Shown: positions 3,932-59,699 of the stretch, piece after piece
How the letters are laid out: each line of letters begins with the position of its first letter
Position numbering within the stretch: the stretch's first letter is position 1
Source: Candidatus Gastranaerophilales bacterium
Lineage (GTDB): Bacteria > Cyanobacteriota > Vampirovibrionia > Gastranaerophilales > Gastranaerophilaceae
Assembly: GCA_944322945.1 (NCBI GenBank)
Contig: CALUQN010000002.1
Span: 62,001-126,000 of the forward strand
Direction of reading: 5' to 3'
DNA: 64,000 nucleotides
Notes under the pieces: generated by a model
Told to the model about the DNA's origin: nothing
What the model saw: only the letters and a program-made list of their open reading frames with translations
Database searches by the model: none
Translations under genes and position numbers: made by a program

Positions 3932-4804
3932 GGGACATATATAGCAAACTCCACCGGTGCTATAAAAATACCTCATTCTGAGCACTCTGCCTCACAAAAC
4001 CTGACTAAATGTCTGGTTTTGTGAGAGGGCGAAGAATCTCTTTTTTTTAGTGAATAGTGAATAGCAATTAAGTGACCAGGTGACCAAGTGTTAAGTGAAC
4101 GGTCTGGCACTGCCTGTCTCTTTTCCCCTCTCCTGATTTGGAGAGGGAGAAGCCGTGCGAAACGTAAGTGAGCTACGGATTCGGGTGAGGGGGCAAACGT
4201 TACGTTTGCATCACTATTCTTTCTACAGACTGAAATACCGCCTTTTTAAAGATATTCAAGAAACTTTAAAAGTTTTTTAATAGACGGCTTTTATAACGCC
4301 CGTAAGAGCTTTTCAATATTCTCCCCTCTCCCGATTTGGAGAGGGTGGCACGTAGTGCCGGGTGAGAGGACAAACTTTCATGTTTGCTCCCCACCCTAGC
4401 CCTCCCCGACCCGGGGAGGGAATAAAGTCATTAAGCTTTTACGGACGCGACAAAAGCCGACTGTAAAAAGAATTACTAAAATTTTTTGAACATCTTCAAA
4501 AGGCGGTACTTCAGTTTGCGGAAATAGTAATGATGCAAACATAATGTTTGCTGTCATCCTGAAAGCGTAGAAAATCCGTTTTTAATTTTTGAAAAACGAG
4601 ATTTTCAAGCTGTTCAGGATCTTGCAGTGTGAAAAGCTAACGCTGGACTTTACGATGGCTGGACCTGTTGCTCCCCATCCCATCCTTTCCCGACTTGGGG
4701 AAGGAGTTTTAAACAAGTTTAGCGCGACCGCAAACATTATTTTTGCTTACGCGCAGCTGTTACTGTAGGTCAGGCAGTGCCTGACAAAAAACTATATAAG
4801 TCAC
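3931..4804. repeat. Gene-free 0.87-kb mosaic of dispersed intergenic repeats
   Basis: No credible gene. The ends look like a terminal inverted repeat: GGGGACATATATAGCAAACT at 3931 and ACTATATAAGTC at the right edge. Inside are modules found elsewhere in this window: a CATTCTGAG...GAAGAATCTC module (3973-4042); GAGAGGG palindromes with GTGAGCTACGG (4130-4192 and 4322-4370); a CCCTAGCCCTCCCCGACCCG hairpin (4388-4425), which is inverted at 15098-15132; and a CAGGATCTT...GGACTTTACGATGGCTG module (4615-4730), which recurs at 54021-54131. Segments 4191-4312 and 4431-4556 form a large imperfect inverted repeat. It appears to be repeats inserted into repeats. Confidence 0.75.
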
Positions 4805-14939: not shown

Positions 14940-15240
14940 TAATAAGGGGGCAAACATGATGTTTGGCAAACGTTACGTTTGCATCAATAGGACTATTCAT
15001 CTTTCAAAAAGTCGCCTTTCGAAGATATTCAAGAAACTTTAAAAGTCTTTTAATCGACGGCTTTTACTGTGCCCGTAAGAGCTTAATGACTTTATTCCCT
15101 CCCCGGGTCGGGGAGGGCTAGGGTGGGGAGCAATGCTAAGTCTGTCAGAGTTATAGGGTGGGCAAAGCGGACGCGTGCCCACATATTTCTTTAGCGCTTA
15201 CGCGCAGGTGTTTATGTCGGTTGGGCATACTTGCCCGACA
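14940..15240. repeat. Intergenic repeat block without genes
   Basis: No gene seen. It contains the palindromes CAAACATGATGTTTG and GCAAACGTTACGTTTGC. A module (15010-15090) nearly repeats 4240-4312, including GATATTCAAGAAACTTTAAA. The hairpin CTCCCCGGGTCGGGGAG with a GGGCTAGGGTGGGGAGCA tail is the reverse complement of 4388-4425. The final part (CTTACGCGCAGGTG, GGGCATACTTGCCC) resembles 4745-4785. Confidence 0.7.
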
Positions 15241-36858: not shown

Positions 36859-37362
36859 GCTATATAATCAAGCCGTTTTTTCTGTTTAACATCCTAATCA
36901 CGGGAATTTCAGTTTGCGAAAATAATGTTGATGCAAACATTATGTTTGCTGTCATTCTGAGCAAAGCGAAGAATCTCAATAAAAAAGAGATTCTTCACCC
37001 CTGAAATGTCGTCGGGTTCAGAATGACGACGGGGCATATTTTTCCCTCTCCCGATTTGGAGAGGGCAGAAGCCGTGCGAAACATCAGTGAGCTACGGCTT
37101 CGGGTGAGGGGGACGTCAATCATTGACAGCTCATATCTCACCCCCTCCCCCTCTCCTACTTAGGAGAGGGGAATAGTCGCTAATCTCTTACGGGCATTAT
37201 AAAAGCCGCCTATTAAAAGACTTTCAAAATTTCATGAACATATACAAAAGGCGATATTTCAGTCTGCGGAAATAATGTTGATGCAAACATCATGTTTGCT
37301 GACACTGTGAACTTAGTTTGGCTATGCTATATAGTCAAGCCGTTTTTTCTGTTTAACATCCT
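36859..37362. repeat. Repeat insertion flanked by a 37-bp direct repeat of a gene end
   Basis: 36859-36895 and 37326-37362 are identical except for one base. The right copy is the 3' coding end of the SprA-family gene, so the left copy is a duplicated gene end. Between them lie intergenic modules: two copies of GATGCAAACATNATGTTTGC (36931 and 37271), a CATTCTGAG module, GAGAGGG palindromes with GTGAGCTACGG, and an arm matching the 4240-4312 module in inverted form. Confidence 0.75.
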
Positions 37363-53889: not shown

Positions 53890-54215
53890 AAACATAATGT
53901 CATTCCGAACATCGGAATGACCTCCGTGTTTCGAAATTTTACCACCGGCAAGACACTGCGGGAAACCGGACATTTTTCACAAAATCAAAGATTTTGGAAA
54001 AAGTAGTCAACCAAGTTCAGGATCTTACCATGCGGAAAGCCAACGCAGGACTTTACGATGGCTGTACCTGTTGCTCCCCATCCCAGCCTTCCCCAAACCG
54101 GGGAAGGAGGTTTAAACAAGTTCAGGGTGATAGATTAATGAAACTGACTTAACGTCTTAACGTCCTATAGTCCTAACGTCTTTAATACCCCGTCATTCTG
54201 AGGTGTTGGACAATT
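53890..54215. repeat. Dispersed intergenic repeat block
   Basis: The 430-bp gap before the prepilin gene has no other gene. 53898-54030 (CATTCCGAACATCGGAATG, then CCGGACATTTTTCACAAAAT) is inverted at 31863-31992. 54021-54131 (GGACTTTACGATGGCTG, CCCCATCCCAGCCTTCCCC / GGGGAAGGAGG) repeats 4615-4730. A CATTCTGAG fragment is at 54189. Confidence 0.7.
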
Positions 54216-57875: not shown

Positions 57876-59699
57876 TTAATTCCGGAATACAATTTCTATC
57901 CCTGTAGGTATGCTTTTGAGGTTATTTTTTACCCAGAAGTTATCCGAGTTACAAAATTCGCCGTTGATTAAAAAGCAGGTTGAACCGGAGCCTGACATAA
58001 TTGAAGAGGGATATTTATTTTTGATAGTTTGGAGTTCATTGTAGTCGTCGATAACCGCCCATTCAAGATCGTTTTGAAAATCATTGCGGCTTGCGGCGAT
58101 TGAAGCCCCCCACCTAACCTGTCTTGGATTTGCTTCACGCTCACGGAGACTCGCCTGGAAGCCCTGCGGGCTTAGCTGGCTCGTTCCGTTCGCTAACCGG
58201 ACTATCGTCCGTCCGTAAATCCGCTCCCCCGCAGAGGGGGGAGGAACCTGATGCGTGCTATCAGTTGTTGATGACTGTATAAGATTGTTTTCGGAGTTTT
58301 CCACCCCAATTAGAGGTGAAGGAATTTGTTGTTCGTTATTAGTTGTTGGCGTTTGTTTGGAATTGTTTGATGATGCTCTATTATTAAATTGCGGAACGTC
58401 GCAGTCCTCTGTTCCTCCCTTTTTTGCTTGGAATGTTGTTGGGAGCATATCATCAGATAAAGTCTGCGTTCGAACATTGCAGCTCTCTGTTCCTCCCCCC
58501 TCTGCGGGGGAGGTTAGGTGGGGGGCTATTGCCCGCTCCAAGTATTCCAAAACCCCATCTATATTTTCAAATATCTCATTGTTCCAAATTCTTATAACTT
58601 TAAAACCGTGTGATTTTAAAAATTCATCACGTTTTGCATCATATTCTATATTGTGAGTTTCATTGTGCTGCCCGCCGTCAAGCTCTATAATAATATTTTT
58701 TTCCAGGCAGGCAAAATCAACTATATAATTCCCGATAGGCTGCTGACGTCTGAATTTTAGATTATGAAATTGTTTTTTTTGTAAATAAAACCACAAAATT
58801 TTCTCGGCATCTGTCATAGATTTCCGTAATTGTTTTGCGATATTTCTGATAGATTTTTTTTCTTGCTTTGTGGTGTAGGTGTCCCCCCCACCTAGCCTCC
58901 CCCTCCGGGGGGGAGGAATTTGCTGCGTGCTATCAATTGTTGAGGACTGTATAAGATTATTTTCGGAGTTTTCCACCCCAATTAGAGGTGAAGGAATTTG
59001 TTGTTCGTTATTAGTTGTTGGTGTTTGTTTGGAATTGTTTGATGATGCTCTATTATTAAATTGCGGAACGTCAGAGTTTTCTGTTCCTCCCCCCTCTGCG
59101 GGGGAGGCTAGGTGGGGGGAAGTATTGAGTTTTGCCGAAAATTTTGTATACGCCTCTTTTGCACTAATACCTAAATTTACCGGCTTTATCAATGATACAC
59201 TAAACTCCTCAAACGGAAGCGACTCCAATATTTCCCCTCTGCCGGAAGTCTTTTGACGGCCGCCCTCCAAACAAAAATTCAAATCAGAACCAAGCTTTGC
59301 ACAAAGTTCATGCAGTTCTGCACGGCTTAGGGGCTGCTCAAAAAGTTCATTCAAACCATACAAAGTGCCTGCCGCATCAGTGCTGCCGCCTGCAAGCCCT
59401 GCCGATACCGGAATATTTTTCTCTATAAAAATTTCTATTTCCGCACTAAATCCAACCCTGTCTAAAAACAGTTTCGCTGCTTTGTATACAAGGTTTTTTT
59501 CGTTATAAGGAATTTCATCGCTGGTGCCGGAAAGTTTTATCGCTGTGTAGTCTGCCTTTTGTGCCGAGATTGTCAGGTAATCGTACAGGCTGATTGTCTG
59601 CATTACGCTGTCTATATTATGAAATCCGTCCTCACGTTTGTTCAGAACTTTTAAGGTCAGATTGATTTTTGCAGGACAGCGTAATTTAATTCTTTCCAT
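57876..59699 (-). CDS. ispE: IspE kinase interrupted by an in-frame DUF559 endonuclease element
   Basis: IspE phosphorylates 4-diphosphocytidyl-2-C-methylerythritol in the MEP route to isoprenoids. Residues 1-193 and 533-607 form one IspE: PAKINLTLKVLN, the GHMP ATP-loop PVSAGLAGGSTDAAG (97-111), and the C-terminal RNDFQNDLEWAV and SIMSGSGSTCFLI. Between them lie 338 extra residues: SPAEGGGTE-type low-complexity repeats around a Vsr-like DUF559 nuclease domain (about 282-393). The frame is open throughout, 607 residues against about 280-300 normally. The insertion follows EAYTKFSAKLN, before the C-terminal helices, where a loop could tolerate it. Whether the protein still works is unknown; the intact frame argues for it. 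It overlaps rsmA by 14 bp. Confidence 0.88.
   Translation of the reverse strand: MERIKLRCPAKINLTLKVLNKREDGFHNIDSVMQTISLYDYLTISAQKADYTAIKLSGTSDEIPYNEKNLVYKAAKLFLDRVGFSAEIEIFIEKNIPVSAGLAGGSTDAAGTLYGLNELFEQPLSRAELHELCAKLGSDLNFCLEGGRQKTSGRGEILESLPFEEFSVSLIKPVNLGISAKEAYTKFSAKLNTSPHLASPAEGGGTENSDVPQFNNRASSNNSKQTPTTNNEQQIPSPLIGVENSENNLIQSSTIDSTQQIPPPRRGRLGGGDTYTTKQEKKSIRNIAKQLRKSMTDAEKILWFYLQKKQFHNLKFRRQQPIGNYIVDFACLEKNIIIELDGGQHNETHNIEYDAKRDEFLKSHGFKVIRIWNNEIFENIDGVLEYLERAIAPHLTSPAEGGGTESCNVRTQTLSDDMLPTTFQAKKGGTEDCDVPQFNNRASSNNSKQTPTTNNEQQIPSPLIGVENSENNLIQSSTTDSTHQVPPPSAGERIYGRTIVRLANGTSQLSPQGFQASLREREANPRQVRWGASIAASRNDFQNDLEWAVIDDYNELQTIKNKYPSSIMSGSGSTCFLINGEFCNSDNFWVKNNLKSIPTGIEIVFRN
58236..58419. 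repeat. Direct repeat copy A inside the ispE element
   Basis: 184 bp, about 95% identical to 58907-59090. It includes the small palindromic piece CCACCCCAATTAGAGGTG and is bordered by GGGGGAGGAA and GTTCCTCCC. Translated in the ispE frame it gives VPQFNNRASSNNSKQTPTTN and IPSPLIGVENSENNLIQSS. Confidence 0.85.
58523..58856 (-). other. DUF559 (Vsr-like PD-(D/E)XK) endonuclease domain within the ispE frame
   Basis: Residues 282-393 of the fused protein. RKSMTDAEKILWFYLQKKQF is the usual opening of DUF559 proteins; FRRQQPIGNYIVDF and IIIELDGGQH give the likely catalytic D328, E339, D341 and H345; GFKVIRIWNNEIFENIDGVL closes the fold. All expected active-site residues are present. DUF559 proteins usually stand alone at about 110-130 residues. 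An internal ATG (M295) could start only a truncated domain, so it is probably made as part of the fusion. Confidence 0.85.
58907..59090. repeat. Direct repeat copy B inside the ispE element
   Basis: Same orientation as copy A and on the other side of the nuclease domain, in the same reading frame. Copy A and copy B differ at only a few bases, so the duplication is recent or kept alike by recombination. Confidence 0.85.

Follow-up and report, generated by a model that had tools for sequence, protein, structure and literature searches.

Related repeat and nuclease systems

The intrastrand-triplex motif TM(ECO), formerly BoxC or PIT, occurs in 23 copies in E. coli K-12, where it is always intergenic; no mobility function has been found around these copies and triplex formation in vivo was not supported (PMC4666352). 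Its three-block construction (C-stem, 3-6 nt, G-stem, 3 nt and a mirror-image G-block) and its inverted pairs (PMC4666352) are shared by the repeats described here. In contrast to the E. coli motif, the present units stand on both sides of a nuclease gene and are also found within genes, in frame.

The REP/RAYT system (REPtron) resembles the elements studied here in the small gene placed between inverted palindromic units, in either orientation, and in the existence of nuclease-less copies, with no target duplication here (PMC3733652). RAYTs are HUH Y1 transposases with GTAG-tagged REPs, whereas the present elements combine a PD-(D/E)xK-like nuclease with triplex-type units (PMC3733652). Assignment to REP/RAYT was rejected, because the gene between the units is DUF559 and not HUH Y1, and Y1_Tnp is absent from several hairpin-rich genomes. 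Rickettsia palindromic elements are likewise palindromic repeats lying in frame in unrelated genes; they measure about 150 bp, have a CGTC end and carry no known nuclease, whereas the present elements span about 0.45-1 kb and include a nuclease gene (PMC10969869, PMC3733652). Membership of that family is ruled out by length and gene content. The initial annotation had compared the insert with these elements; the comparison holds for the logic only, the closer kin being BoxC/PIT triplex repeats and homing endonucleases.

The DUF559 nuclease has a predicted fold, invariant acidic and His residues and same-site spread between species in common with Vsr and the EDxHD homing endonucleases (I-Bth0305I). 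Unlike them, the present nuclease is found without a self-splicing intron or intein, between inverted ends of its own and at many sites per genome. Among DUF559 proteins, VsrA of Caulobacter provokes an SOS response and was proposed to be a mismatch-repair enzyme (PMC12907096), and in Legionella a DUF559-bearing repeat is an intragenomic recombination hotspot (PMC12308824). No link of DUF559 to BoxC or inverted repeats was found in those open-access papers naming DUF559 whose titles suggested relevance.

The insert in ispE

The DNA analysed (the window) is a stretch of 64,000 nucleotides from a gut bacterium, a member of Candidatus Gastranaerophilales. Its minus-strand ORF 59699-57876 passes the cut-off of TIGR00154 ispE, and ispE is single copy, with one strong ispE per genome. 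As initially annotated, the gene contains an insert of exactly 1,014 bp, or 338 codons, between inverted boxes, and the coordinates proved exact: the CCCCCCACCTAACCTGT box lies at 58106-58122 and its inverted partner at 59103-59119. Excision of 58106-59119 leaves an IspE ORF of 269 aa with Ser-Ser across the joint. The low-complexity parts are indeed stop-free, the linkers (248 codons) containing 0 stops in the ispE frame, compared with 9 and 22 in the other two frames and about 11 expected. The insert is also a nuclease carrier, as had been supposed, with a DUF559 match at ORF residues 284-390 (E 6e-39). The features are collected in Table 1.

Table 1. Features of the ispE locus in the window
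Feature	Position	Strand	Remarks
ispE ORF, 607 aa, host of the in-frame insert	57876..59699	-	TIGR00154 ispE, E 1e-55
Whole insert, 1,014 bp, inverted boxes at both limits	58106..59119	.	Sister genera: empty orthologous loop, 12-19 codons
ispE N-terminal part, purifying selection	59120..59699	-	dN/dS about 0.04-0.1 (N and C parts, between genus members)
ispE C-terminal part, purifying selection	57876..58105	-	dN/dS of N and C parts between genus members
DUF559 (PF04480) nuclease domain, predicted Vsr/EDxHD homing-endonuclease fold	58530..58850	-	Model pLDDT 89; PDB 3hrl, 3r3p, 1vsr
Outer end unit: hairpin CCTCCCCC/GGGGGAGG, CTA, mirror block GGTGGGGG(G)	59086..59119	+	
End unit, inner side of left module: hairpin, CTA, mirror block	58884..58916	-	
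End unit, inner side of right module: hairpin, TTA, mirror block	58492..58525	+	
Right-end outer box, hairpin half now displaced	58106..58120	+	No complete three-block unit recovered there
Other repeat family, parting right outer box from hairpin (58224-58243)	58121..58223	.	Same TGTCTTGGATTTGCTTCACGCTCACGGAG... string elsewhere
In-frame direct repeat of about 195 bp, left copy	58897..59091	-	93% identical to 58224-58419
Direct repeat of about 195 bp, right copy	58224..58419	-	

An intein or mobile intron is ruled out by linkers that are stop-free in the ispE frame only, as for translation; furthermore, no splicing domain was found in Pfam or NCBIfam, and no Rfam family scored above its gathering threshold. 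The N- and C-terminal parts of ispE in carriers show a dN/dS similar to that of empty ispE genes (values in Table 1), and the ispE-borne nuclease shows about 0.04-0.07; these low values indicate that the fusion genes behave as working genes. A pseudogene accompanied by a second copy is ruled out by the single strong ispE per genome and by the strong purifying selection, and an assembly artefact by the recurrence of inserts in all four of the genus's species as well as in genomes sequenced independently. An intragenic element is presumably translated together with its host, forming an additional domain in a surface loop. A model of the complete fusion protein had low confidence (mean pLDDT 48.7) and was left unused, the DUF559 domain alone being well folded.

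The inverted terminal boxes described initially are present, but the insert contains four boxes and not two (58106+, 58511-, 58884+, 59105-). Three of the four belong to complete three-block units, and the nuclease is flanked by two box-bounded modules with the common direct repeat. The TGTCTTGGATTTGCTTCACGCTCACGGAG... string adjoins boxes at other loci of the same genome, e.g. L050 and L052, and the CCCCCCACCTARCCT box has 19 copies genome-wide, against 0 for the control. The four boxes, the two repeat modules and the displaced hairpin show that the window copy is composite; the best explanation is a widespread element to which repeat insertion or duplication was added later. In G000, and apparently also in G001/G003 (L116, L120), an entire two-ended module is directly repeated on the two sides of the ispE nuclease, as if it had been duplicated around the nuclease. 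Single three-block triplex-type units are present elsewhere in the window (4389-4420, 4673-4704, 15097-15128, 37135-37171 and 54076-54107), and mosaic clusters of several palindromic repeat families occur in the window genome (L050, L052, L054, L055, L056). The CTT that flanks the window insert on both sides does not recur as a rule among the elements.

Orthologous ispE alleles

A DUF559 insert occupies the same ispE loop in each of the genus's four genomes, and the predicted empty sites exist: sister genera are without the insert, their loop from GISAKEAYTKF to NDLEW comprising 12-19 codons. Measured from motif to motif, the inserts are 1,065 bp long in the window and 501, 585 and 585 bp long in the others, with different ends, which contradicts the initial view of the 17-bp boxes as the ends of a fixed 338-codon unit. 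The simple form, consisting of end unit, nuclease and end unit, is represented by G002 ispE (458 bp box to box). Neither this element nor the one in G030 priA (443 bp box to box) is a multiple of three as annotated, contrary to the expected rule, so selection acting after insertion accounts better for the in-frame state than does a unit built in triplets. What stands of the proposed adaptation to coding sequence is a nuclease-bearing element with palindromic ends lying in frame; the fixed unit does not. In G001/G003 ispE the ends are decaying and the nuclease is conserved.

A further Gastranaerophilales genome (L169) has an insert in the same ispE loop, its nuclease grouping elsewhere on the tree, and ispE-loop nucleases thus occupy two places (at least two lineages). 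Several other modifications of ispE were observed. In two genomes of another family (G054 and G056; L130 and L131), ispE has near residue 50 an in-frame insert of another kind, about 130-150 aa long and lacking DUF559, and at the same place G055 ispE (L132) has a short remnant. The N-terminal region of G018 ispE (L034) includes a short in-frame insert in which a stretch of 7 residues is duplicated, KVKCPAK ... RVKCPAK. In G023 (L026/L111) a DUF559 element joins ispE in frame ahead of the ispE start, and the resulting open frame has 505 codons.

DUF559 genes between triplex-type end units

Full-length DUF559 genes in 59 relatives are accompanied by inverted repeats (hairpin and box) on both flanks, and a scan of 84,980 genomes revealed 80 loci of the same design in many phyla. 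Because all loci share the unit, a cross-locus null for the inverted ends is inflated, and same-locus windows together with the published pattern were used in its place. Inverse-complement flank scores exceeded the 95% point of the same-locus controls at 70 of 75 loci. Hairpins of at least 7 bp were detected in the 150-bp flanks of 102 DUF559 genes, 89 times on the left, 81 on the right and 75 on both sides, as against 23 of 192 background windows. The left and right arms match each other with a median score of 49 within an element (cross median 21), and in 36 of 100 cases the top-scoring partner of an arm was the other arm of its own element, about 1 being expected. The end-unit pairs occur, by reading, in both orientations. 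In many phyla, DUF559 genes are normally found in this arrangement of unit, nuclease and unit. Some DUF559 loci lack clear ends (e.g. L213, L224), and at L015 and L016 DUF559-like domains lie within large helicase-type proteins.

The unit, CCCTCTCCC-loop-GGGAGAGGG-TTA-GGGTGAGGGG, matches the published triplex motif (PMC4666352), the end units of the window being variants of the CCTCCCCC type with the same three blocks. When the pattern CCCTCNCCC N3-6 GGGNGAGGG N3 GGGNGAGGG was searched with up to 2 mismatches (PMC4666352), it was found in 47 of 202 DUF559 flanks and in 3 of 382 control windows (P 3e-20). The 43 distinct asymmetric units show A/T in the third block opposite a stem A in 83% and opposite a stem G in 8%, in mirror register only; the direct register gave no signal. 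Such three-strand agreement is needed by a triplex and not by a simple hairpin. Judged by its sequence, the end unit of about 35 nt (hairpin of C-block and G-block, 3 nt, mirror-image G-block) is the BoxC/PIT motif or a close variant of it.

E. coli K-12 itself has a DUF559 gene, ycjD (1351407-1351760), and TM no. 9 (Table 1 of PMC4666352; 1,351,239-1,351,204) lies 168 bp downstream of it. At this locus (L330, 2705-3300) a degenerate second unit is also seen downstream and a long, different hairpin upstream; since the other end is a different hairpin, E. coli represents only a partial case. The locus is variable, 3,330 of 5,426 E. coli genomes having most of it in one place. A clean empty site was sought and rejected, as the two lacking strains examined carry other genes there.

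The structural model of DUF559 (Table 1) matches NGO0050 (3hrl), which is a sequence match as well, I-Bth0305I (3r3p; TM 0.65-0.75) and Vsr (1vsr; TM 0.55-0.63). The residues invariant in 63 sequences include E20, D49, E60, D62 and H66. The modelled nuclease is consistent with an EDxHD/PD-(D/E)xK-like homing-endonuclease fold.

This likeness to Vsr and the Vsr-like action of Caulobacter VsrA (PMC12907096) would also suit a host repair or defence nuclease around whose gene BoxC-type repeats gather, their spread being due to a different mobiliser, for example a Y1/RAYT transposase; Y1_Tnp genes are present in G000 and G002. Such an explanation is unlikely, as the units form an inverted, mutually matching pair tight around the gene, and the DUF559 genes are themselves transferred between species and lie at numerous unrelated sites, some of them within essential genes. 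Moreover, G001, G003 and G023 possess 13, 40 and 174 hairpins, respectively, and no Y1_Tnp match. Across 59 genomes, the hairpin count correlates with DUF559 at rho 0.68 and with the Y1 transposase at 0.36, phylogeny being ignored and the nuclease genes themselves contributing hairpins. Five genomes have at least 5 hairpins without a full-length DUF559.

Copies within other genes

The expectation that other copies would be found was borne out, related elements lying in frame in many other genes. These are priA (G000, G002, G030, L170), prmA (L175, L188), valS of a Rickettsiales member (L202), an MmeI-type enzyme (L196), earP (L233), M14 peptidases (L177, L184, L194, L204, L210), a type I specificity subunit (L225), UvrD-like helicases (G014, L198) and a hydE-like radical SAM gene, near its C-terminus. 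Eight of the non-ispE fusions are confirmed by Pfam. Element-spanning ORFs of at least 230 aa use the nuclease's own frame, except for reverse-strand ORFs at L186, L226 and L229. No split host genes were apparent among 72 short-frame loci, the ten candidates inspected having different genes or spurious ORFs on the two sides. The intragenic elements are in frame, with host and nuclease under purifying selection, and since box-to-box lengths are not always divisible by three, this placement is read as the result of selection. In the valS gene of L202, a second, nuclease-less repeat-like insert is apparently also in frame. The nucleases of the M14-peptidase loop fall in three separate places on the tree, although the well-supported branches, taken by themselves, are compatible with a single origin.

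Divergence of element and host

Empty sites were found for ispE, priA and hydE, and hydE of G001 has, by reading, a short scar-like stretch where G000, G002 and G003 hold the element. At one orthologous intergenic site, G000 has a full 580-bp element, G002 the same outer ends without the nuclease, and G001 is empty. The synonymous difference of DUF559 is far below that of its host gene in three comparisons: hydE of G000/G002 (0.064 vs 0.572, P 3e-14), priA of G000/G002 (0.173 vs 0.549, P 8e-7) and ispE of G001/G003 (0.181 vs 0.495, P 2e-5). In other pairs at these loci, nuclease and host do not differ in this way (e.g. 0.67 vs 0.66 for hydE of G000/G003), so the low divergence of the nuclease is not due to sequence constraint. 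Sliding identity revealed islands centred on the element at the three loci, being the highest peak of the contig in two and level with the highest or second in the third. These comparisons of sequence indicate recent passage between species, to the same site, at three loci. A gap of this kind between nuclease and host divergence would be expected from homing or gene conversion; the identity islands could also stem from homologous recombination in which the nuclease had no part.

The inserts might be passengers of ordinary homologous recombination and vertical inheritance, with DUF559 no longer part of any movement. Same-site copies are mostly monophyletic (hydE, priA), the ispE inserts of the genus are in most pairs as diverged as the host, and the ends decay in G001/G003. 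This reading is considered more improbable still than that of a host repair or defence nuclease, in view of the three islands centred on the element, the presence and absence within one genus, a nuclease dN/dS of about 0.04-0.12, and the number of nuclease lineages per loop, which is at least two for ispE and up to three for the M14 peptidase. A transposon served in trans by a still unknown transposase, with DUF559 only as cargo, would account for the inverted ends and the nuclease-less, MITE-like alleles, yet it is very improbable, as no target-site duplication above chance was detected in 73 elements and DUF559 is the only gene repeatedly identified between the ends, findings by which an IS element or classical MITE, with DDE-type transposase and target-site duplication, was likewise rejected.

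Proposed mechanism and significance

The locus is thus probably best described as a nuclease element that is mobile in a homing-like manner, has triplex-forming ends and is tolerated within genes only if the reading frame is kept. DUF559 would nick or cut the empty allele or a structured end, and repair would copy the element in (homing); the main uncertainty is whether DUF559 itself cuts. Single-stranded folding of the ends may delimit what moves and make new sites accessible to it. Copies that lack the nuclease, and solitary units, would then be debris of elements, orphan BoxC repeats would be nuclease-less derivatives, and within genes only tolerated in-frame insertions would survive.

A broader proposal, put forward tentatively and at somewhat less than even chances, is that DUF559 elements constitute an undescribed class of mobile DNA, in which a homing-type nuclease mobilises a triplex-ended unit without transposase or splicing, BoxC/PIT repeats, on record for decades and including those of E. 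coli, are nuclease-less offspring, and in-frame life in essential genes is normal. Tying BoxC to a single small nuclease offers a direct test of the question of BoxC mobility, also in E. coli K-12 (ycjD). As a selfish gene that resides in essential proteins and does not splice, the element is the nuclease-carrying counterpart of the Rickettsia palindromic elements. Translated element ends may account for peptides such as TPHPDPLPQGERE in annotated proteins, and many of the DUF559 genes now annotated as unknown, Vsr-like or restriction-like may be genes of mobile elements.
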